A stretch of 64,000 nt of DNA from an uncultured Gammaproteobacteria bacterium (lineage in GTDB: Bacteria; Pseudomonadota; Gammaproteobacteria; DRJJ01), in the NCBI GenBank assembly GCA_947258795.1, contig CAMYJU010000004.1, positions 1-64,000 on the forward strand, written 5' to 3'. The position numbers and the translations under genes were made by a program. A model generated the notes under the pieces. It saw only the letters and a program-made list of their open reading frames with translations. It did no database searches and was not told where the DNA came from. Positions 31,849 to 44,006 of this stretch are shown here, piece after piece; the first letter of the stretch is position 1, and each line of letters opens with the position of its first letter.

Positions 31849-33249
31849 TTATTCCTCCTTTGTTGAGAATATTCCCGAATCCTGTTGCATCGGAACGACT
31901 TTCAGGATCAGTCCATTTACCGCGGCCACCCTGACCTGCTGACCTTTTTGTAGAGGGGTATCGCTCTGGGCCTGCCAGGTTTCACTGTGGATTCTGACCT
32001 TACCGCTATGCTCGAAATCGTGCAGCACCGTGGCCTTACCGCCCAGCAACTCATCCATACCGCTGACCACCGGCCGTCGTCGCGCCTTGACCGCCATACC
32101 CACGATGAGAAAGAACATCAGTGCGCTGGCTATGGTAAAGGTTATAATCACCGAAATATCGATACCAAACCCCGGAGCCTCGGTATCCATCAGGATAACC
32201 GAACCAATCACAAATGATATCGTTCCACCAATACCTAGAATCCCGAAACTGGGCTGAAAGGCCTCACCAACCATCAGGGCCAGGCCCAACAGGATCAGTC
32301 CGACACCCGCATAATTGATTGGCAATAACTGGAATGCATACAGGGCAAGCAGTAAACAAATGGCACCAACAGTACCCGGTACAATTGCACCCGGATTGGA
32401 GAACTCGAATATCAACCCATAGATACCTATCAGCATTAATATATAGGCGATATTCGGATTGGTTATTACACCCAGTATACGGCTGCGCCAGTCCGGTTCA
32501 TATTCGATAATGGCCAGGCCGGTCGTCTGCAGGGTCCGATTCTTCCCCTGTACCGACACTTCCCGATCATGCAGTTGCTTTAACAGATCCGCCACAGAAA
32601 CCGCGACCAGGTCGATAACCTTGAGCTTCAGCGCCGCACTGGCCTGTAGGCTGGCCGCCTCGCGTACAGCCTTCTCGGCCCAGTCCTGGTTTCTGCCACG
32701 TAACTCGGCCAGACCCCGGATATAGGCAACCGCATCGTTGATGACCTTTTGCTGCTTGGCACCCGCAGGCTCTTTGTCCTGTTCAGACGAATCTTCAGGC
32801 TTTTGCTTGTCATCCTTACCCTTTGTTCCTGGCGGAGAGATACCACCTATCTGCACAGGTGTTGCCGCACCCAGGTTGGTGCCTGGCGCCATCGCCGCAA
32901 TATGACTGGCATACAGTATGTAGGTCCCGGCACTGGCCGCGCGTGAACCGGTAGGCGCCACATAAGTGACAACCGGAACAGAAGAAGCTGTAATCTGTTT
33001 GATAATTCCGCGCATCGCGGTATCCAGACCGCCAGGTGTATCCATGCGGATGATAATCAGTTCGACCCGACTTCCCTCGACAGACAACATCGCCCGCTCG
33101 ATGTAATCCTGTGTCGCCGGCCCGATCGCGCCGTCGATACTCAGTTGCAGAGCATATTTGCCAGCGCGATCTGCCGCCCCCACGCCCAACATCAGGATTG
33201 CGCAGAAAAAAATACAAATCCCGGCAACTTTCCTGGCTAAACTCGCCAT
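31849..33249 (-). CDS. NfeD-type membrane-bound ClpP-class serine protease
   Basis: A 466-residue protein with a signal peptide (about 1-25), a ClpP-like protease domain (about 28-235) containing the strand MDTPGGL, the nucleophile serine in [10 protein letters not shown] and the downstream SGTN-like loop [10 protein letters not shown], then four to five membrane segments (about 265-390). A C-terminal OB-fold NfeD domain (about 400-460) follows. A Lys/Glu/Asp-rich insert lies between the two halves of the protease domain (about 143-165). It is operonic with the slipin gene 2 bases downstream, forming the known protease-stomatin pair. Confidence 0.9.
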
Positions 33250-33363
33250 GATGGTATCCCTGTGAACAGCACTGTTATCCTGAAACCCGTTCAGTTACAG
33301 TGTCAACATGTATTACATAGTTAATATAGTAGAAATTATCGCAGATCGTTATGATCTGCCTCA

Positions 33364-35754
33364 TCAACCACGCATTAACACTGAAGATGATTCTGCCATT
33401 TGACCGAGAGTGAAGTAGAAAGTGGCTCCATGATTCACATTGGCTTCAGCCCATATCCGCCCACCATGTCGACCAATAATTCTTTTTACTGTAGCCAGCC
33501 CAATTCCCGTCCCTTCATAATCATTTCCATGGAGTCTTTGAAAGGCGCCAAAAAGCTTACTTGCATGGTCCATATCAAACCCGACACCATTATCTTTTAC
33601 ATAGTAAACAGCTTCATCAGTATCTGATGCCACGCCGAATTCAATATACGGATTCTTGGTATTACTGGTGTATTTCCAGGCATTACCGAGCAGATTTTCA
33701 AGCACGATACGAATCAGACCCGAGTCACACACTACCGGACCTGTATTTGATACATGGCACCGAACATTATTATCTTCATGCATGCTATGCAGATCAGATA
33801 TGACAGAATTTGCGATCTCGCCAAGATCAATTTTTTCGAAATCCAGATTTGCGCGACCCAACCGAGATAAATTCAACAGATCATCGATTAATCTTCCCAT
33901 GCGATGGGTATTGTTACGTATACGCTGTATATAATCCTTTCCCTGCTCATCTACCTCTTTCTCATAGTCTTCGTGCAGAATCCGGCTAAATCCATCTATG
34001 GCACGCAGCGGTGCACGCAAATCATGTGAAACCGAATAACTGAATGATTCAAGCTCCCGGTTAAGCTCACCCAATTCTGCCGTACGCTTGTCGACCAGAT
34101 CCTCCAGATGATCACGATATTCTTGCAGTTCTTTTTCAGCACGCTTTCGTTCCTCTGTTTCAATAGCAAGCGCGACAGTGCCGGCTATTGATGTCGCATA
34201 ATCCTGTTCTTCGAGCGTCCATTCCCGCTGTTCTCCTGTTTGCTCATGACAAACAACCCCGATTACCTTACCCTCGGTATGGATCGGCACATCGAGCATG
34301 GAATGTATATCCAGAGGTATCAGATAACTATCGGTAAACTCGTTGGTTTCAGGTGCGGTTCGTGCATCACTGACTGCCAGAACCTGACTTGTTTCCAGCG
34401 CTTTGAAGTAGCTAGGGAAATCACTAACCTTGAGCTGCATTCCTTCGTCATGCTTTTTGTCCTGGCTGACATAAATGTCTTCACAATAAATCGCTGTATG
34501 CTCCGGATTATAAAACCAGATACTAACCCTATTGGTTTTAAGAGCTTCCGCTGCTAGCTCACTAGCCTTGTGAAAAGTCTCCTTCAGATCGATATGACTG
34601 GATTTTGCCCATTCCATAAAGGCATATTGTTTTTTCTGCATCAGCTCCATGTGCTGTTGCCTTTCGTGTTCAGCCAGCTTGTGGTCGGTTATGTCAAACA
34701 TAAAACCTTGTAATCTAGCCGGCGCGCCATCTTCATGGATAACGGTTACATCATTCCGTATCCACACGACACTGTTGTCAGCACTGATCATTCGGTACTC
34801 GAATTCATGATTCTGACCGGCAGCGGTTTCAGAGTGGCAGTATGTTACTGCACTATCCCGGTCATCAGGATGAAGATGATCTTCCCAAAATCTTTCTGTA
34901 TACCAGTCATCTACAGGGTAACCGAGGAGCTTGACAATCTGACTGCCTATATAGGTGAATCGCCAGGTAGGCAAATCCAGAACCCAGGGTATAGCCGTAG
35001 TAGAACCCACTAGCCGACGATAGATAACATCTTTTTCATTCAAGCTGTGTTCAAGTGACTGTCGATCCTCAATCATATTTGCAAACGTAGAAGCAAGCAC
35101 TCTCATTTCATGACTGGAATTTGCAATATCAGTGGGTTCGGGTACCTCCCCTCTGCCATATGCCTGCATGAAGCTGACCAGTTGATGTAAAGGTGTGGCA
35201 ATCCGACGACCAAATAGTACCGCCAAACTTGCCCCAGCCAGTGTAATCAGGATTACGAGCAAGAGTATTTCTTGGTGAATAACCTGTATCAGAGCAGTAA
35301 TTTTATTCTGATTAACACCTACATGTACATGTGCATCCATACCCTTTATTAGAGGATATGAAATATCATCAACAATACCTGCGGTGGTATAGAGAGTATG
35401 TTCATGCTGGTGTGCAGTTAACCTATCATGTGTTTTATGTATCAGCTCTTTAGGAAAACCTCCTTCAAAAGTGTGTGTTAATACATACCCATCAAAGTCG
35501 GTCACATAAGCATACTCCAACGCAGGATCATCATTTACTATGGCCTCTAGTTTCTCGCGAACCTTTAGAACATCTCCATTAATGGTATTGAGGGTAATAC
35601 CCTCGGAAATGGCATGCACGAGCGTCCCCGCCCATTCGTTTTGCGATGCATGTAGACGGTCTCGCAATATGACACTGGTCAGATAAACAAAAGCAATGCC
35701 GTATACCAAAGAAAGACTAATAACCAGCAATGCAATTTTGACCGATATTTTCAT
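33364..35754 (-). CDS. PAS-GAF sensor histidine kinase
   Basis: From the ATG at 35754 the protein is 796 residues. It has a membrane segment (about 5-27), a periplasmic loop, a second membrane segment (about 162-181), HAMP (to about 235), PAS (about 260-385) and GAF (about 400-555). A short coiled coil follows, then HisKA with the phosphoacceptor His in SVSHDLRAPLRAID and a HATPase domain (NLLGNAWKYT, DNGVGFD, GTGIGLATV). An upstream start at 35811 is rejected because this ATG overlaps the stop of the PhnD-like gene as ATGA, a classic coupled start. No response regulator is adjacent, so the output partner is unknown. Confidence 0.9.
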   Translation of the reverse strand: MKISVKIALLVISLSLVYGIAFVYLTSVILRDRLHASQNEWAGTLVHAISEGITLNTINGDVLKVREKLEAIVNDDPALEYAYVTDFDGYVLTHTFEGGFPKELIHKTHDRLTAHQHEHTLYTTAGIVDDISYPLIKGMDAHVHVGVNQNKITALIQVIHQEILLLVILITLAGASLAVLFGRRIATPLHQLVSFMQAYGRGEVPEPTDIANSSHEMRVLASTFANMIEDRQSLEHSLNEKDVIYRRLVGSTTAIPWVLDLPTWRFTYIGSQIVKLLGYPVDDWYTERFWEDHLHPDDRDSAVTYCHSETAAGQNHEFEYRMISADNSVVWIRNDVTVIHEDGAPARLQGFMFDITDHKLAEHERQQHMELMQKKQYAFMEWAKSSHIDLKETFHKASELAAEALKTNRVSIWFYNPEHTAIYCEDIYVSQDKKHDEGMQLKVSDFPSYFKALETSQVLAVSDARTAPETNEFTDSYLIPLDIHSMLDVPIHTEGKVIGVVCHEQTGEQREWTLEEQDYATSIAGTVALAIETEERKRAEKELQEYRDHLEDLVDKRTAELGELNRELESFSYSVSHDLRAPLRAIDGFSRILHEDYEKEVDEQGKDYIQRIRNNTHRMGRLIDDLLNLSRLGRANLDFEKIDLGEIANSVISDLHSMHEDNNVRCHVSNTGPVVCDSGLIRIVLENLLGNAWKYTSNTKNPYIEFGVASDTDEAVYYVKDNGVGFDMDHASKLFGAFQRLHGNDYEGTGIGLATVKRIIGRHGGRIWAEANVNHGATFYFTLGQMAESSSVLMRG

Positions 35755-36707
35755 CGTAACCCTTCTGGAATAGAGCCGCTTGGTTTCAATATGCCTAGCT
35801 TGATAGACCATTCCCGCAATTGGTCATAGTCCTGGATTTTTGCTTCGATAAACCCGTTAGGCATTTCTGTTTTATCCCAGTTATACAGCCCTTCCTTATG
35901 TCGCCCTTTAGGATCAAATGCCAGTAGTGCATGCTTTATTTTTAACACAACCTCATCAGGCACGCTTTTATTTACCGCAATCCCACTGGAAGGATAGTAG
36001 TCAGAGGTATACAGGATTCGTAATAGCCCTTTTGATGCCATCTCCTTAGCCATGGTATCCTGCATACCACAAACATCTGCTTTTTTTGAGATGACACTAT
36101 TCGCACAGTTTACGTGCGAGCCGGTATACTCATAGCTGGAAAAGTCTTTTAATGCCAGCTTGTGTTTCGCTAATACTATGCGCGGAATAAGATGACCTTG
36201 CGTTGATTTACTGCTTCCAAACACCAAGCGCTTACCTTTAAGATAATTCATGTCTTTAATGCTGCTTTCCGGACGTACGACAATGATCGACTGATACTTG
36301 GCCTTTCCGTCCGCATTGATACCACGAACCAAACTGACAACCTGGTACTTCTCATGAGCTGCAATATAAGACACTGCACCAATCGCGGCCAATTGAAAAT
36401 TATTCTGACCCAATTCATCGACTATCGAGCTGTCTTTAGGCGTAAATCTCAATTTGAAATGATATCCAGTCGACTGTTCTAAATAATCTAGAAATGACAG
36501 ATACTGACGTGCATCTTCCTGAGGACTCGATCGCAGATCAAAGCCAAATACAAATACCTTGTCATGATCATGGGTATGCCTGTCTGACGCCAGCTCAACA
36601 TCACTGATTTTATCGTTCAGATCAATAACAGAACCCTGTTGTTCCCGATCACAGGCAAAGAGAGATAGGGAAAGAAAGACAACTAAGATTTTTATAGCTG
36701 CATTCAT
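35751..36707 (-). CDS. PhnD-like substrate-binding lipoprotein
   Basis: A 318-residue lipoprotein: signal and lipobox (MNAAIKILVVFLSLSLFAC), a His/Asp-rich linker (ASDRHTHDHDK), then a PhnD/SsuA-type periplasmic binding fold (FGFDLRSSPQ, QLAAIGAVSYIAAHE, LKGKRLVFGSSKSTQGHL, YTGSHVNCANSVISKKADV). Homologues bind phosphonate or phosphite; no ABC permease or ATPase is present here. The gene is translationally coupled to the downstream histidine kinase by an ATGA overlap, so it probably acts as the ligand-binding part of the sensor. The ligand is unknown, and the His-rich linker might bind metal. Confidence 0.85.
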   Translation of the reverse strand: MNAAIKILVVFLSLSLFACDREQQGSVIDLNDKISDVELASDRHTHDHDKVFVFGFDLRSSPQEDARQYLSFLDYLEQSTGYHFKLRFTPKDSSIVDELGQNNFQLAAIGAVSYIAAHEKYQVVSLVRGINADGKAKYQSIIVVRPESSIKDMNYLKGKRLVFGSSKSTQGHLIPRIVLAKHKLALKDFSSYEYTGSHVNCANSVISKKADVCGMQDTMAKEMASKGLLRILYTSDYYPSSGIAVNKSVPDEVVLKIKHALLAFDPKGRHKEGLYNWDKTEMPNGFIEAKIQDYDQLREWSIKLGILKPSGSIPEGLR

Positions 36708-37109
36708 CTTAACAATTTTCCTTTTGTTACAGATCTATTTTTAGCATGCCAATATACTCATGGCCGAAACCGTTTATGCACCGAAACAGTGCATATTATT
36801 CCCTTAATTGACGAATAGCGTTTGAGCAGTTTTCGTTAAGGCTGCAAATCCACACTTTTGACTATTTATAATACGGTAATCGTTAATTACTAAGTATATA
36901 GCAGGTTTACTCTATTTTACCGTACAACCAACTCTTAACTTGCAGGCCCATCGTGTCGCAATCATCCGCAGCATAGACCTTGAATTTTTCTATGTGATAT
37001 TTGTTGCATTAGACACGCAAATCGGAAACTTATTGCATTGAATCACTAGCATATCGGCTGGATCCAATGGTTATTCATCACACCATCTGTTCACGACATC
37101 AGCGGCTAT
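36708..37109. other. AT-rich intergenic region upstream of the PhnD-kinase operon
   Basis: About 400 bases with no gene on either strand. The first part must hold the promoter of the minus-strand operon. I could not assign clear -35/-10 boxes, and I see no RNA gene here. Confidence 0.4.
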
Positions 37110-37147
37110 AAATGAAATATCAGGAAAGTATGGTGGCCGGGGACAGA
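37110..37147. repeat. Direct repeat copy 1: 3' end of tRNA-Phe plus 21 bases
   Basis: A 38-base sequence identical to 37293-37330. It contains the last 17 bases of the minus-strand tRNA-Phe gene, including CCA, and the 21 bases downstream of it, but the rest of the tRNA is missing here. Confidence 0.85.
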
Positions 37148-37292
37148 CTGGATCACACGGATGTGATCCAGGACGGCTGTGGCCGCCCGCAGGGCGAGGG
37201 CCAGGACGGCCCGAGTCAATCTAACTGACGACGCCAGCGACAGCTGGCCGGCAGTTCGATGAACGTGCCTGACAGCAACCGGCTAAAAGTAA

Positions 37293-37330
37293 AAATGAAA
37301 TATCAGGAAAGTATGGTGGCCGGGGACAGA
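37293..37330. repeat. Direct repeat copy 2, at the 3' end of the intact tRNA-Phe
   Basis: Perfect 38-base partner of 37110-37147, offset 183 bases. The 145 bases between the copies are GC-rich and hold a small palindrome GGATCACA/TGTGATCC at 37150-37169, with no gene. Confidence 0.85.
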
Positions 37331-37389
37331 ATCGAACTGCCGACACGAGGATTTTCAATCCTCTGCTCTACCAACTGAGCTACCCGGCC
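37314..37389 (-). tRNA. tRNA-Phe (GAA)
   Basis: A 76-base cloverleaf on the minus strand with encoded CCA. The acceptor stem GGCCGGG pairs with CCCGGCC, the D-arm is GCTCAGTTGGTAGAGC, the anticodon stem GAGGA/TCCTC closes a loop TTGAAAA with anticodon GAA, and the T-arm carries GTTCGATTC. It closely resembles E. coli tRNA-Phe. Partial copies of the same gene lie on both sides (37110-37147 and 37519-37537). Confidence 0.97.
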
Positions 37390-37518
37390 ACATTGTAAAA
37401 GTTTTCTCGCCATCCATGGCGTCGCTTCAGTGTTCTTTTGAACACCGGCCCGACCATCCGTGGTCGGGCGCTCCCTGGCAAAAAGGTCCACCGGACCTTT
37501 TTGTTATGGCCGGATCGC
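37390..37518. other. Spacer with two hairpins upstream of tRNA-Phe
   Basis: No gene. Two inverted repeats stand out: CCCGACCA/TGGTCGGG at 37449-37468 with a 4-base loop, and AAAAAGGTCC/GGACCTTTTT at 37480-37502 with a 3-base loop. The second has A and T tracts on both sides and could terminate transcription in either direction. Confidence 0.55.
37480..37502. terminator. Possible bidirectional terminator hairpin
   Basis: A perfect 10-pair inverted repeat (AAAAAGGTCC, loop ACC, GGACCTTTTT) with a T run on either strand. It lies between a tRNA-Phe 5' fragment and the intact tRNA gene. The GC part of the stem is only five pairs, so strength is uncertain. Confidence 0.45.
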
Positions 37519-37537
37519 CCAACTGAGCTACCCGGCC
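37519..37537 (-). pseudogene. 5' fragment of a tRNA-Phe gene
   Basis: Nineteen bases identical to the 5' end of the intact tRNA-Phe on the same strand (acceptor 5' arm and start of the D-arm, GGCCGGGTAGCTCAGTTGG). After that the sequence diverges, so no tRNA can form. It is separated from the intact gene by about 130 bases. Confidence 0.75.
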
Positions 37538-37808
37538 TAATATTGGGTATGTCCGGTTCGCCACTTTTGGGTGAACCAGTAATGAATTTCTACATCAGTA
37601 GACTTTCAAAGAGGCGTAATTAAACAGGCTGTCGGCGTTCAAGTCAAGTCAGCAAGTGTGGTTTTAGCCACCCGGATATACCTCATCAAACACACATACC
37701 ATTGATATAGCTGGTTTTTTAATGAATAACCCTGTCATTTACCCCTTGATGAATACACCAATTTAACCTAGTGTATGCGTACCAACCCCTCTGAAATGTG
37801 TTATCACG
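37538..37808. other. Intergenic region upstream of amrS
   Basis: About 270 bases with no recognisable gene. It should carry the promoters of the minus-strand tRNA and of the plus-strand amrS, but none is assigned. Confidence 0.4.
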
Positions 37809-38891
37809 ATGTCTGTCATAAAAAAAGCCCCGGCAAACTACCAACTGGTTGAAACCCGCCTGCAGGAACAACTCGGTAACGGCACTACCCGCTGCCATCT
37901 CTGCCTGTGGCGCTGCAAACTGGTACACGGACAGCGTGGATTTTGCCAGGCCCACGTCAACCGCAACGGCACGTTATATAACCTGTCCTACGGAATCCTG
38001 TCGGCAATCGACATCGGTGCCATCGAGGACAAACCGGTCAGGCATTACCGTCCCGGCACACGGATTATGTCGATAGGCAGCTATGGCTGTAACTTCCGCT
38101 GTGGTGGCTGTCATAATCTGGAGATTTCCTGGGGTGTCACGGCACTGGATGAGCTGGCACAGGGGGCTTCAACTGCACCCTATGTGACACCGGAAGAGCT
38201 GATCAAGGCCGCATTGCGCCATGACGTACAGGGTATCGCCTTCACCTACTCGGAACCGGCTGTCTGGCTTGAATATGTACTGGATGTATCGGTGCTGGCA
38301 CGTGAAGCCGGTCTGTACACGGTCTATGTGTCCAACAGCTATGTGACTGATGAAGCACTGGAACTGATGGCGCCCCACGTCGATGTGCTGTGTTCGGATA
38401 TCAAAAGCCTGAGTGACGAATTTTATCAGGACATCTGCAAACCGGCCCGGGTACAACAGGTGCTGGACTCAATCGCAAAAGCTAAACAGCTTGGTATGCA
38501 TGTCGAAACCCGCACCAATATCATCCCAGGGAAAAATGATGATCCGGACGAGCTGCAACGCATAGCCGAATGGATACGTGATCACCTCGGTGCTGACAGC
38601 CCCTGGCATATTACGCGCTTTTTCCCGGCCTATAAATTATCGCACCTGCCTGAAACACCTGCGGACATTATGTGGACAGCCGAACAACAGGCGCGCAAGG
38701 CCGGACTGGAAAACATCTATGTCTACGACGATAAGGGTTGCGACTGCGCCGAAACCAACCTGCCGGTCGATGTCTACCTGGATACCGATCCGGCCAACCT
38801 GCGCCAGGTCAAGAAATGTTCGGCCAGTTGCTGTGGTGATGAAGGCATACTGCTAAAGAAGTATGAAAACCAGGGCGGAAAAGCCAACTGA
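37809..38891 (+). CDS. amrS: AmmeMemoRadiSam system radical SAM enzyme AmrS
   Basis: A 360-residue radical SAM protein with an N-terminal Cys motif (CHLCLWRCKL, GFCQAH) and the radical SAM cluster CNFRCGGC in SIGSYGCNFRCGGCHN. Further motifs are TYSEPAVWLEY, NSYVTDEAL, DIKSLSDEFY and HITRFFPAYKL. This matches AmrS, a companion of the AmmeMemoRadiSam proteins AmrA and AmrB and related to pyruvate-formate-lyase activating enzymes. The partners AmrA and AmrB are not encoded in this window. A Cys-rich C-terminus (CDCAET, CSASCC) is also visible. The reaction is not known. Confidence 0.9.
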   Translation: MSVIKKAPANYQLVETRLQEQLGNGTTRCHLCLWRCKLVHGQRGFCQAHVNRNGTLYNLSYGILSAIDIGAIEDKPVRHYRPGTRIMSIGSYGCNFRCGGCHNLEISWGVTALDELAQGASTAPYVTPEELIKAALRHDVQGIAFTYSEPAVWLEYVLDVSVLAREAGLYTVYVSNSYVTDEALELMAPHVDVLCSDIKSLSDEFYQDICKPARVQQVLDSIAKAKQLGMHVETRTNIIPGKNDDPDELQRIAEWIRDHLGADSPWHITRFFPAYKLSHLPETPADIMWTAEQQARKAGLENIYVYDDKGCDCAETNLPVDVYLDTDPANLRQVKKCSASCCGDEGILLKKYENQGGKAN

Positions 38892-38892
38892 C

Positions 38893-39168
38893 TCAGTTCC
38901 CAGACGGCGGCACATAACCCTCGATCGCATCAGCACCTTCACCAAAGAAGAAGGATTCCATCTGCTGTTCCAGGTATTTTCTGTGCTCCGGATTGACCGG
39001 AGTCAGACGCCGTTCATTCATCAACATGGTCTGGTGCTGCAACCACATCTGCCAGGCCTCTTTTGAAACATTATCAAATATGCGCTGACCCAGCTCGCCC
39101 GGATAGACCTGCATATCCAGCCCATCGGCCTGTTTTTTCAGTTTCACGCATTGCACTTGTCTACTCAT
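38893..39168 (-). CDS. yggX: Fe(2+)-trafficking protein YggX
   Basis: A 91-residue cytoplasmic protein linked to protection of Fe-S clusters against oxidation. The conserved N-terminal [14 protein letters not shown] with its cysteine, [17 protein letters not shown], and [19 protein letters not shown] identify the family. It overlaps the end of mutY as ATGA, matching the conserved mutY-yggX pair. The adjacent Fe-S protein MutY is a plausible beneficiary, but that is inference. Confidence 0.95.
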
Positions 39169-40211
39169 ATCACACCTCTTAGCAGCCGCCTGACCGGTGC
39201 CGGCAGGCCACGTTGTTCATTTGATGCGCTGTTATACCAGACGAACTCACCACTTTCCATAATCTTGTCCGAAAACGCCTTAACCGCGATACACAGCGGT
39301 TGAATCTGCAGATGAAAATGGGTAAAGGTATGGCGCCTGTCAGGCAGTACCTCGATATGGCCGGCTTCCAGCCCATACTGTTCACGGCAGTGTGTTTCAA
39401 TCTCTTCATCATGGCCACATTCAGGCAGGCTCCATAAGCCACCCCATATCCCGGCAGGCGGACGTTTTTGCAGCAACACTTCGCCCAGGCGGTTTTTCAG
39501 GATCAGAAAACAGGATTTGCGCACCGGTATGTTTTTTTTCGGCTTCGGGTACGGAAACTCACCGACCCGGCCCTGCGCATGGGCCACGCAGGCAGCCTGT
39601 ACCGGACAGGCATCACAGTACGGGCGGCTCCGCGTACACAAGGTGGCGCCCAGATCCATAATTGCCTGGGTATAGTCCGCCACCCGCTTACGCGGGGTAT
39701 AACGCTCAGCCAGCTCCCAGAGTTCATTCTGCACCTCACGGTTACCACTCCAGCCTTCTATCGCATGAAACCGTGTCAGTACGCGCTTTACATTTCCATC
39801 CAGGATAGGCTGTCGCTGACCGCAGGCCAGGGACAGGATCGCGCCTGCGGTCGATCGCCCGATGCCCGGCAGCGCCATCATTTCATCCAGGGTTTGCGGA
39901 AACTGTCCGGCATGTTGATCGTGAACGAGTCGTGCCGTCTTGTGCAGGTTTCTGGCACGGCTGTAATAACCCAGGCCTGACCAGTAATACAGCACATCAT
40001 CCTGATCGGCATCGGCCAGACTTTCCAGGCCAGGAAAGCGCTGCATAAACCGTCCATAGTAAGGTATGACCGTCGCCACCTGGGTCTGCTGCAACATGAT
40101 CTCCGACACCCACACCCGGTACGGATTGGCAGCCTGTTGCCAGGGAAGATCCTTGCGCCCGTGATGATCAAACCAGTTCAGCAATCGCTGACTGAAACGA
40201 AATCCACTCAT
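39165..40211 (-). CDS. mutY: A/G-specific adenine glycosylase
   Basis: Removes adenine mispaired with 8-oxoguanine. The 348 residues include the catalytic glutamate in [12 protein letters not shown], the helix-hairpin-helix [13 protein letters not shown] with the following catalytic Asp in [10 protein letters not shown], and a [4Fe-4S] cluster motif ([17 protein letters not shown], Cx6Cx2Cx5C). A C-terminal Nudix-like 8-oxoG recognition domain follows (GGLWSLPEC). It lies between asmA and yggX on one strand, the usual order. Confidence 0.96.
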
Positions 40212-40218
40212 AACAAAC

Positions 40219-42210
40219 TCAGAACTTCAATATACCCTTGAGTTTGTCATCGAGCTTTTCCTTGAGCTTGTCTTTTTCCTTGTCCGCTTTCTTCTTGAGT
40301 TTAGCCTTCTGCTGCTCGGTAACCACTTTACCCAGATCCACCTTGAAACCGGGATCACGTAATGGACCACTCACCTTGACCGGTATCGGCACACCCTTGA
40401 GCTTGTCCAATGAGGCGCCACCCTGTCCTTGCAAGGTCGTAACGATGGTGGTTTCAACCGTGTAATTAATCTGCTCCTTGACCAGATCCACCTGCCCTTT
40501 GCCGGTGATACGCAGGAACGGGCTGTTGGCCAGCAGGTCGTTATTATGCACCACACCATTCAAGATTTTTGCGGTACCGGTCAGGGAAGTGAAATCGGTT
40601 TTCTCCGGTTCATTCGGCGGCTGCGGCGAACCGGTCAGTGTGGCATTGGCCTTGCGCAGCATCAGTGGAATATTGACACCCTTTATGGCACCGTCTTTAA
40701 AGCTGAAGGCCGCATTACCGTTCAGACCCTTGCGCAACTGCGCGATGGTATTGCCACGCGTTTTGACCTTGGCCGACATATCCGCCCTGCCACTGACCAT
40801 ATCCAGGTCAGCTGCATCCTTTAGCAGCGGGGCAGCCTGTATGCCATCCAGTTTCTCGTTTATCGAGAAGACCGGTGCATTGCCACGCACATCGACCTGG
40901 ATATCACCGGCATAGCTGCCTTCATACAGCCGGGCACTGGCCGGACTGACCTTGATCAGCCCCTTGTCGGCATTCAGCGTGATTTTGATATCGGTAGAAC
41001 GGATACCATAGGCCTTGAGCTTGCCTACATTCATCTGCCCACGGACATTCAGGCCACGCAGTGTCTCAACCGGTATTGGTAATGGCGCGTTTTCGTCAGC
41101 TGCCGGTTTGGCACCGGCGGCAGGCTTGTCTTTCTTCTCCGGTGCCGGCGGCAGGTAACGATCGGCATCCATTTCATCGATATCCAGCGTGAACCGGATC
41201 CCGGCCGGTGATAACGGACTGAGTTTAAGATTACCCTTTACTGTGGTGTCATCCAGTTTGACGGCCAGATTGCTCAGGGCCAGCTGCGCCGGTGTCATCG
41301 AAAAACTGCTGGCCAGTGAAGCCTTGCCAAAAACGGTCGGGTCCTGGGTTTTCGGTAGCTCGATACCCAGCTCAGTCAGCAGGTCCCGCGGAACAAACTC
41401 GTTACTGGTCAGCTTGCCTGTTACCGAGGCATCTTCACCGGACATGCTCACCTGCCCCTTCAGCTCCAGGTCGGCCAGTACGATTTTCAGATCGCTCATT
41501 TGCATCTGGTGCTTTTCCTGCTCAATGCCCAACACAGTGGTCAATGATACCGGGTAGTTCTTGCCAGCCTTTTTATCAGTCGCGACCATACTGAGTTTGA
41601 CCGGTACCGGTTTGTCCGCAGACACGGCACCCACATCCAGTTCCATATCACGCAGCGACCAGGCAACCTGATTTTGTTTGTCATCCCAGTCCATATTCGC
41701 ATTACTGATGCGGATGCCTCCGATGTCCAGGTCGACCGGGGCCATGTCCTCGTCATGCCGGTCTGTATCTGCCTCTTCCCTGGAAGGTTTTTTCTTTGTT
41801 TCCGACGCGGCCACCAGGTCATCCCAATTAGTCTTGCCTTGCACGTTGCGCATCAGTTGCACAGACAGCCCATCCAATATCAGCTTGTCCATAACCAGTT
41901 TCTTGCTCAACAGGGGCATGACCTGCACATTGATCGAGACCTGGTCAATTTTCGCAAATGCCTGGTCGCCAAAACCCGGCGCATTACCCAGCTCGGTCTT
42001 GCCGATCTCGATGCCAAACCACGGGAAGAAACTCAGTGACAGGTCACCCTCGATCTGCAAGGTCCGCCCGGTCGACTCCTGAACCTTTGCCGTGATCTGG
42101 TCCTTATAGTCATTGGGATCGACCAGCACGCTGACTGCGATCACCAGCGCGATGAACAGAACAATAATTAAAGCAACCAGATACAGCGCATATTTCATTA
42201 TTTTAGTCAT
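40219..42210 (-). CDS. AsmA family envelope protein
   Basis: A 663-residue protein anchored by one N-terminal membrane segment (about 6-30), followed by DPNDYKDQITAKVQESTGR and a long periplasmic beta-rich region typical of AsmA proteins. A duplicated AsmA core and a Lys-rich C-terminus (KKKADKEKDKLKEKLDDKL) are visible. AsmA-like proteins are bridge-like lipid-transfer or outer-membrane assembly factors. A Pro/Ala/Lys-rich linker at about 350-370 separates the two halves. The gene stops 7 bases before the mutY start and is the first gene of an asmA-mutY-yggX unit. Confidence 0.88.
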   Translation of the reverse strand: MTKIMKYALYLVALIIVLFIALVIAVSVLVDPNDYKDQITAKVQESTGRTLQIEGDLSLSFFPWFGIEIGKTELGNAPGFGDQAFAKIDQVSINVQVMPLLSKKLVMDKLILDGLSVQLMRNVQGKTNWDDLVAASETKKKPSREEADTDRHDEDMAPVDLDIGGIRISNANMDWDDKQNQVAWSLRDMELDVGAVSADKPVPVKLSMVATDKKAGKNYPVSLTTVLGIEQEKHQMQMSDLKIVLADLELKGQVSMSGEDASVTGKLTSNEFVPRDLLTELGIELPKTQDPTVFGKASLASSFSMTPAQLALSNLAVKLDDTTVKGNLKLSPLSPAGIRFTLDIDEMDADRYLPPAPEKKDKPAAGAKPAADENAPLPIPVETLRGLNVRGQMNVGKLKAYGIRSTDIKITLNADKGLIKVSPASARLYEGSYAGDIQVDVRGNAPVFSINEKLDGIQAAPLLKDAADLDMVSGRADMSAKVKTRGNTIAQLRKGLNGNAAFSFKDGAIKGVNIPLMLRKANATLTGSPQPPNEPEKTDFTSLTGTAKILNGVVHNNDLLANSPFLRITGKGQVDLVKEQINYTVETTIVTTLQGQGGASLDKLKGVPIPVKVSGPLRDPGFKVDLGKVVTEQQKAKLKKKADKEKDKLKEKLDDKLKGILKF

Positions 42211-42481: not shown

Positions 42482-42973
42482 ATGAATCCAACTTGTGTAA
42501 TCGTAGCCAACAGCAGTCGTGCCCGTTTTTTCAAGCTTGAAGACCATGACACACCTGAAGACGACACCGGACCCAGGCTGATCGAACTAAGTGCCCTGGT
42601 CAACTCCGAAACCAATCATAATTCCAGCGGTAGCTGGAGCGAAGTGAAATCAGGACGCAATCGCGCCACCACCAGTGGCAACGCACATGGCTATGATGAT
42701 CATCGACAAAAACACCTGGATGAATATGAAAAGCGTTTTGCACAGTCTATCGTAGACGAAACGCAACGCATCAATAAAAACAACAAAGGCAAGGTCATCC
42801 TGGTATCTCAGAACCGTATGCTGGGCCACTTACGCACGGCAATCAATGGCTCGATCAAGGGTATCCGCACATCCGAACTGAACAAGGACCTGATTCGGTT
42901 GAACCCGAATGAACTACAGAATCGTCTGTGTGACGAACACCTGTTACCCAAGCGGCGCTCAATCACACACTAA
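42482..42973 (+). CDS. Host attachment-family protein (AtsE-like)
   Basis: A 163-residue soluble protein that begins CVIVANSSRARFFKLED, the hallmark of the host attachment family (PF10116/PF18856 group). The AKFRLGKQYE-like middle is represented by HLDEYEKRFAQSIVDE, and GKVILVSQNRMLGHLR follows. In Agrobacterium a member affects attachment to plants, but in free-living bacteria the role is unknown; the fold resembles release-factor-like domains. The ribosome site AGGAGG sits 8 bases before the ATG. It is a single gene upstream of the tRNA-Gly. Confidence 0.85.
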   Translation: MNPTCVIVANSSRARFFKLEDHDTPEDDTGPRLIELSALVNSETNHNSSGSWSEVKSGRNRATTSGNAHGYDDHRQKHLDEYEKRFAQSIVDETQRINKNNKGKVILVSQNRMLGHLRTAINGSIKGIRTSELNKDLIRLNPNELQNRLCDEHLLPKRRSITH

Positions 42974-43074
42974 CTACACACTGCTGCGCCTCTGTAACAG
43001 GGGCGCAGCCTTAAACACTGGTTTGCGAAGGCGCTAACCTCATCCGACATGACCCGGGGAGCCCAAAACCGGTG

Positions 43075-43148
43075 TGGAGCGGGTGAAGGGAATCGAACCC
43101 TCGTATGCAGCTTGGGAAGCTGCCGTTCTACCATTGAACTACACCCGC
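43075..43148 (-). tRNA. tRNA-Gly (CCC)
   Basis: A 74-base cloverleaf on the minus strand with encoded CCA. The acceptor GCGGGTG pairs with CACCCGC, the anticodon stem GCAGC/GCTGC closes the loop TTCCCAA with anticodon CCC, and the T-arm holds GGTTCGATTCC. It resembles E. coli glyU closely. Confidence 0.96.
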
Positions 43149-43376
43149 ATGCCGCCATGACAAGCCGCCATTGATGATCTGCACGGCTCAGCGACTGTTT
43201 ATTAACAAACATTCACCATGTAAATTATATTACATCCTGTACAGGAACATTCCATAATAGCAGCCACAAGAACAGTATTCTGCTCAAATACAATAACTTA
43301 TAAGTTGCTATTTACAAACGGTGCTGAATGCCTGCGCAAGATTGCCTGATCGATCAGTCAATACAAAGCTGACAAT

Positions 43377-43404
43377 AAAAAAGCACCCTGTCGGGTGCTT
43401 TTTT
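43377..43404 (-). terminator. Rho-independent terminator after mepK
   Basis: GCACCC (43383-43388) and GGGTGC (43393-43398) form a stem with a 4-base loop, flanked by A6 and T6. It lies about 20 bases after the minus-strand stop at 43425. The symmetric A/T tracts allow bidirectional action. Confidence 0.85.
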
Positions 43405-43424
43405 ATTGGACTGTTAAAAAGGAA

Positions 43425-44006
43425 TTACCAGCTGCGTACGCGCCCGACATCCATATGGATAAAATTGGAACGCTCGTAATAACCGACACCACCGGCGTTT
43501 AATGACATGGCCGCCTGTCTGAGCTTGCGCGTATCATAGCGCGGTAGCCGGATATCGATCGCCTTGCCCTGCATATGCAGGCTCTTTTTCGCCACACCAT
43601 TGCTTTTCTTGTTCAACATCGCATTGGTTTTTGGCGAACGATAGCAGGAAATCACATGGAACGGTTTGTTGCTGTCGATCTTCTGCTGCAAAGTATAGAT
43701 CATGTCAAACAGGCGTAAATTGATATCATGCGCCTTGCCAACCCGATGATCACGCAGTAACCAGCGCAGGTCCCTGATCCCGTCGGCGATATACTCACCA
43801 TCCATCCAGTATGGCGCGGTTACCTGTTCACCGGTATGGGTGTTGTACAGGGAGATCACGCGTTCGCCGCCTTTGGTCAACGCAGCTGACACGCCTGCAG
43901 GCAATATCAGGCCCGCTGTAAGCCCGGCACAACCGCCAAGGAAGCTACGACGTGAAAAATTAACAGATTTTTGGCAATTGGCCGTGTTCCTTTTATTACT
44001 AAACAT
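43425..44006 (-). CDS. mepK: Murein endopeptidase MepK / DUF882 family
   Basis: A 193-residue exported protein. The N-terminus has a twin-arginine signal (SRRSFLGG) with a hydrophobic stretch to about residue 42. The body has the DUF882/M15 metallopeptidase pattern: CYRSPKTNAMLNKKSNGVAK, SLHMQGKAIDIRLP and FIHMDVGRVRSW supply the zinc-binding His/Asp/His. In E. coli MepK cleaves 3-3 and 4-3 peptidoglycan cross-links made in part by LdtD. The gene follows ldtD at about 100 bases on the same strand, as ycbB-ycbK does in E. coli, and is followed by a terminator. Confidence 0.9.
   Translation of the reverse strand: MFSNKRNTANCQKSVNFSRRSFLGGCAGLTAGLILPAGVSAALTKGGERVISLYNTHTGEQVTAPYWMDGEYIADGIRDLRWLLRDHRVGKAHDINLRLFDMIYTLQQKIDSNKPFHVISCYRSPKTNAMLNKKSNGVAKKSLHMQGKAIDIRLPRYDTRKLRQAAMSLNAGGVGYYERSNFIHMDVGRVRSW

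Follow-up and report, generated by a model that had tools for sequence, protein, structure and literature searches.

Small, hairpin-rich units that stand in tandem beside a tRNA gene and carry a copy of its 3' end are described as RtT repeats (RF00391), as at the tyrT locus of Escherichia coli. In E. coli K-12, three repeats lie 178 bp apart behind tyrV, and the tyrT repeat is annotated as a small RNA, rttR. The tyrT repeats, reportedly the subject of work by Egan and Landy, by Rossi and colleagues, and by Boesl and Kersten, have looked like a local curiosity. Short, non-coding, hairpin-forming palindromes, dispersed and often found at gene ends, are familiar as REP/MITE-type repeats. Finally, TwoAYGGAY RNAs (RF01731), which have two hairpins with AYGGAY loops, are predicted from a motif match to bind CsrA (PMC4333381).

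The locus described here, at positions 37110-37537 of the window (the whole 64-kb stretch of DNA that was analysed), is a two-sided case of tRNA-end repeats, in which the 3' kind is partly known as RtT while the 5' kind is without an Rfam match (Rfam 15, at relaxed thresholds too). Read on the minus strand from 37537 to 37110, it consists of tRNA nt 1-19, a 129-nt spacer, a whole tRNA-Phe(GAA), 21 nt of trailer, a 145-nt spacer and a displaced 3' end:

37519..37537, minus strand: displaced 5' copy, tRNA-Phe nt 1-19, identical in 19/19 positions to 37371-37389 and stopping at the two G of the D-loop.
37390..37518, minus strand: body of the 5' element, 129 nt with four helices; matches model R1 at 111.5 bits (E 4.5e-35 in its own genome), a training-set score because this body is one of the 14 sequences behind the model.
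37480..37502, minus strand: 5' element hairpin AAAAAGGTCC-GGT-GGACCTTTTT (helix 2), kept through compensatory change.
37449..37468, minus strand: 5' element hairpin with loop ACGGAT, a GGA loop (helix 3, read from the sequence).
37408..37421, minus strand: 5' element hairpin with loop ATGGAT, a GGA loop (helix 4, read from the sequence).
37314..37389, minus strand: complete tRNA-Phe(GAA), from the tRNA gene call.
37148..37292, plus strand (reads towards the tRNA 3' end): spacer of the 3' element, 145 nt, between the two 38-nt copies.
37148..37171, plus strand: 3' element hairpin with loop ACGGAT (read from the sequence).
37198..37212, plus strand: hairpin GGGCC-AGGAC-GGCCC within the RtT-like core (read from the sequence).
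37249..37260, plus strand: 12 nt perfectly antisense (inverted) to the tRNA T-arm at 37331-37342, from an inverted-repeat search.
37110..37147, minus strand: displaced 3' copy, the last 17 nt of tRNA-Phe and 21 nt of trailer, identical in 38/38 positions to 37293-37330.

The order of parts and the perfection of the 38-nt repeat are as the original prediction had them, and the 19-nt repeat is perfect too; the two hairpins that it saw in the 5' spacer are present, but belong to a larger set of four helices, each of which covaries in relatives. When the stretch was compared by BLAST with the 64-kb window, the 3' repeat gave E 3e-14 (41 nt, one mismatch) and the 19-mer E 7e-4, so that neither end repeat is due to chance. 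A promoter/terminator scan found no terminator at the locus, and the block TTGACT-17-TTTAAT was read by eye and is not listed by that scan. Elsewhere in the window, a perfect 16-nt inverted repeat with a T run (43373-43408) lies near tRNA-Gly(CCC) (43075-43148), and a direct-repeat search of 42600-43600 gave no displaced fragments of that tRNA.

In the only same-genus genome that was compared (G001, 81% complete, so that loss there and gain here are indistinguishable), tRNA-Phe stands behind a 39-nt block in common with the window (35/39 identical, counted by eye), which includes the promoter-like TTGACT-17-TTTAAT, and its 5' flank has neither a 5' element nor a stub. Behind the tRNA, the same genome has a shortened and decayed 3' element with a displaced end that mismatches the window tRNA at 2/17 positions and its own tRNA at 6/17 (counted by eye); because of this closer fit to the window tRNA, the displaced end looks like a fossil older than the split. 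That G001 keeps a decayed 3' element and is without the 5' element indicates that the two window elements have separate histories. The uninterrupted tRNA-Phe proposed as a point of comparison is found in the relative on the 5' flank but not on the 3' side, and an arrangement fixed in all relatives, raised as the case against an insertion, was not seen.

Altogether, the window locus is probably the result of two small non-coding repeat elements that inserted separately, each duplicating the adjoining tRNA end. The layout is plain, and comparison of the sequences on the 5' side supports insertion there. The original prediction of an insertion beside a tRNA that leaves a whole tRNA and a displaced end holds up to this extent, given the G001 5' flank and the presence of the 5' body beside other tRNAs, where it is attached to copies of those tRNAs' ends; it had one insertion where we propose two.

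The 5' element is a member of a structured family whose hairpins have GGA loops and which occurs mainly in Gammaproteobacteria, both at tRNA ends and at other sites. Model R1 was built from 14 bodies that align over their length, with the tRNA part taken off, and its structure has four helices with 92.1% of cells paired and 16/26 pairs changed on both sides. The covariation score of this structure is equalled by 0/500 shuffles, and sliding the partners destroys the signal; among 146 R1 matches (140 distinct), in an alignment that is fitted to the R1 model itself, 24/26 pairs are changed on both sides. The hairpin loops of the family follow ANGGAY. Matches at E <= 0.01 occur in at least 70/369 class genomes, a lower bound owing to strict filters and to the nine candidates scored per genome, and matches at E <= 1e-4 occur in 22/299 phylum genomes, 13 of those 22 outside the class. 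The numbers of G-U and A-C cells (64 to 59) do not clearly mark either strand as the selected one; dropping two poor pairs post hoc gives 64 to 30, on which we do not rely.

Searching the window's own genome with the whole stretch revealed a second copy on contig C24, composed of a 5' tRNA-Arg fragment, a 148-bp unit and a tRNA-Arg; the original prediction had proposed such a search for both spacers, and this copy is one of the 5' spacer. That tRNA-Arg (L053, G000:C24, 2700-3200) breaks off past the anticodon region and enters an insertion-sequence-like end, beside which a transposase-like ORF was read by eye at L053 1696-2868; the same insertion-sequence-like end also lies behind tRNA-Arg at L280, from 1323 onward. 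A search of relatives (37 genomes, own included) gave tandem copies, with three units before tRNA-Phe and others before tRNA-Met in G012 and two units in G034, and the unit of about 148 bp is conserved across distant genomes.

How the body is joined to tRNA genes was read from 94 loci chosen by score, training loci included, in which 143 of the 146 R1 matches are complete (three end-clipped ones were left out). Forty-six of the 143 lie within 30 nt of a same-strand tRNA, and a same-strand tRNA follows within 1 kb in 27 more. Another six abut a tRNA on the opposite strand, ten have a tRNA within 1 kb in some other arrangement, and 54 are without a tRNA within 1 kb, an absence that refers to the DNA of the sampled loci, since some of these matches sit at contig ends. 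The 46 abutting units adjoin tRNAs for 11 amino acids with 19 anticodons. In 32/46, the fragment before the body matches the adjoining tRNA best when set against the tRNAs of other anticodons in the set; four more tie and ten fail, one of the ten (L090 at 477) being a weak match that overlaps another tRNA. Among good fragments, the start is at tRNA nt 1-2 in 38/39 and the end, in most, at the D-loop GG, and GG directly precedes the body in 128/143 units. The ends of the matched fragments range from nt 13 to nt 42, and the duplications extend into the leader in L067, L118 and L121; these variable ends and leader-reaching duplications argue that there is no fixed target duplication. A strict pattern for the junction, in which a tRNA 5' end is joined to the body, occurs in 24/369 class genomes, with 0/369 for the reversed control pattern, and misses the window itself.

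At 26/94 loci, adjacent same-strand units (35 pairs) form tandem arrays of about 145-bp units, and adjacent units are often near-identical. We infer that the arrays elsewhere most likely grow by unequal exchange between repeated units. In L044, a unit with a Phe-type 5' end (1382-1529) stands 124 nt before a tRNA-Met, and this 5' end equals that of the Phe tRNA in the same genome, as if units can move together with their fragment.

The strong covariation of the body would also be expected if these were fixed, vertically inherited regulatory RNAs of tRNA operons that are selected and not mobile, the tRNA-like part being a functional mimic. The annotation of the E. coli tyrT repeat as a small RNA agrees with this idea, and so does the better conservation of the fragment than of the body in some tandem pairs (0.95 vs 0.70 in L043), which is reversed in others (0.83 vs 0.98 in L045). 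Patchy presence (70/369 class genomes), absence of the 5' element from the same-genus genome and the Phe-type unit before tRNA-Met in L044 nevertheless make a fixed RNA an unlikely explanation.

Copies of the body are also found away from tRNAs. A named-genome pattern scan of 84,980 genomes, which says little on frequency, gave at least 120 stretches, and the 80 of them that were read come mainly from Lysobacter, Luteimonas, Pseudoxanthomonas, Xanthomonas, Nevskia, Solimonas and others. This named set holds 109 R1 matches, 101 of which are tabulated (partial ones were left out), and 96 of the 101 complete matches are without a tRNA within 1 kb. Together with the 54/143 above, this indicates that the body is not tRNA-specific. 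TGA stands at body nt 2-4 in 72 of the 96 tRNA-less copies. An open frame of 100 codons or more precedes 38 of those 72, as compared with 83/480 random TGA in the same loci, from which we conclude that some family members sit at protein-gene 3' ends. Bodies in Xanthomonadales and others (L148-L227) often provide the TGA stop of the preceding gene. In G082 (L099-L102, L110), bodies also occur away from tRNAs as overlapping pairs, one on each strand.

The breadth of this distribution bears on the reading that the window holds a decayed tandem cluster of three tRNA-Phe genes, reduced to a 5' stub, a whole gene and a 3' stub. Clusters of tRNA genes are common, and each stub matches one tRNA end exactly. 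However, homologues of the 5' spacer adjoin tRNAs for ten further amino acids and also occur at protein genes, and G001 has no stub in the 5' flank; the shared spacer largely refutes decay of a cluster, which we regard as very improbable. Taken as candidate tRNA remnants in their own right, the spacers were rejected: the 5' spacer is the shared body, unrelated to tRNA, and the 3' spacer has an RtT-like core.

Other two-sided loci show how the elements are oriented. On the single contig of G020 (L147 576-2000), seven units stand before tRNA-Met and inverted units with the same body stand after it, each with the tRNA 3' end. The rule in G020 is that the body points at a tRNA terminus and is joined on its far side to the inner part of that terminus's copy, and the window 3' element obeys it, reading copied 3' end, body and tRNA 3' end on the plus strand. 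The window's genome has a further case on contig C26 (L280, 200-1311), where the order is csrA, tRNA-Ser(GCT) and tRNA-Arg(ACG). The tRNA-Ser is flanked by fragments of itself, a 5' one ahead of it (32 nt, 91%) and a 3' one after it (45 nt, 84%); its two spacers have 51 nt in common at 86%, and the spacer behind the tRNA scores as RtT with E 1e-6, just below the family cut-off. R1 elements also stand before tRNA-Arg(ACG) in L064 and L106, behind the same tRNA-Ser. Assembly duplication, the other objection foreseen for the window, is unlikely, as further loci in the window's genome have the layout and so do other genomes, including G020, which is a single contig.

Each of the two window elements lies outside one tRNA terminus, points at it and is bracketed by two copies of that terminus, so that the tRNA stays whole. 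We favor, with some reserve, a mechanism whereby the element inserts after an internal GG of the tRNA and the stretch from there out to the terminus is copied, thereby duplicating the tRNA end. No mobilising enzyme was found for the elements.

Displaced tRNA ends beside an intact tRNA are also what site-specific integration leaves, and the original prediction had considered a remnant of such an event; the fragments would then be attachment-site copies of a phage or island. An origin of this kind appears highly improbable to us: both tRNA ends are affected, the spacers are only 129 and 145 nt long, and there is no integrase among the seven neighbouring proteins (31849-42210). Moreover, a unit of about 148 bp is kept across distant genomes, the 5' spacer has no match among plasmids, its core pattern has none in IMG/VR, and the best 20 of 49 phage matches cover the tRNA only.

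The body of the window 3' element differs from that of the 5' element; it has a core in common with RtT-type repeats and lies in reverse orientation to the tRNA. In G026, units that follow one tRNA-Ser match positions 37185-37221 at 95% identity; a unit that follows another tRNA-Ser does so at 90% over 40 nt, and this second unit (G026:C12) itself scores as RtT with E 4e-4. RtT (RF00391) gave no match within 37100-37545 at E <= 10; at E <= 0.01 it is found in 61/274 class genomes, 18 of them above the cut-off, with E. coli positive as a control. Ten RtT-like bodies align poorly, with three rows from L048 out of register. RtT-type tandem repeats were also observed beside tRNA-Gln genes in L311, where the spacing is 213 bp, and in L313.

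Copied 3' ends and T-arm antisense raise the idea that 3' elements are anti-tRNA folding switches that would draw the precursor away from the cloverleaf. The predicted acceptor-stem pairing does fall, to at most 0.15 in 17/19 loci, when 220 nt of downstream sequence are included. Shuffled downstream sequence lowers it too, with 1 to 15 of 15 shuffles reaching the observed value, and E. coli tyrV, which we take to be a working gene, is among the tested loci; equilibrium folding also ignores folding during transcription. Because shuffles often disturb the cloverleaf as well and tyrV is on the list, we give the folding result little weight and consider such switches most improbable.

The loops ACGGAT and ATGGAT of the 5' element resemble the consensus of CsrA/RsmA sites, and a csrA gene is present in the window's genome (contig C26). 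Two or more GGA hairpin loops occur in 96/143 units, as compared with about 1/143 in shuffles and 0/143 on the other strand, a count that is inflated because the R1 model itself partly selects such loops; in the two C26 units, the equivalent core hairpins are without a GGA loop. As a function, we tentatively propose binding of CsrA/RsmA by RNA freed in tRNA processing. In the window 3' element, the GGA loops lie opposite the tRNA strand, and this reading is therefore inapplicable there unless the other strand is transcribed. It is more doubtful still that, class-wide, such elements colonise either tRNA terminus by copying its end, that maturation frees arrays that bind CsrA, and that the tyrT repeats are a local member of this system; if true, tRNA transcription would be tied to carbon-storage regulation.

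Among known RNAs, TwoAYGGAY resembles the 5' element in its two loops, here ACGGAT and ATGGAT, but only one hairpin aligns (17.6 bits vs a cut-off of 43, E 5.8), and the accessible part of its description mentions no tRNA link (PMC4333381), unlike the window element. Sponge RNAs of the CsrB/RsmY type likewise have repeated GGA hairpin loops, and CsrA is encoded in the window's genome; no Rfam match to these RNAs was obtained in the window stretch at E <= 10, and the window elements are tied to tRNA genes and gene ends rather than forming a free-standing sRNA gene. With REP/MITE-type repeats the family has in common that it is short, non-coding, hairpin-forming, dispersed and often at gene ends, whereas it differs in being linked to a duplicate of the neighbouring tRNA end and in forming ordered tandem arrays at tRNAs, with no partner transposase identified. 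As in RtT, the window unit includes a copy of the 3' end of its neighbouring tRNA (17 tRNA nt within the 38-nt repeat). In the window, however, the core at 37185-37221 is on the plus strand and the tRNA on the minus strand, whereas the RtT body is on the strand of its tRNA, and the 5' element lies on the other side of the tRNA with a different body. Our literature search, which most subscription journals lay outside, found no published description of such repeats at tRNA 5' ends. The family accounts for displaced tRNA stubs that could pass for phage scars, and it makes testable how a non-coding unit gains the end of whichever tRNA adjoins it and whether tRNA transcripts deliver GGA-loop RNA to CsrA. 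The principle seen at tyrT, a small hairpin unit with a copy of the neighbouring tRNA end, is found across Gammaproteobacteria in tandem arrays that can be counted, at the 5' as well as the 3' terminus of tRNAs that serve many amino acids.
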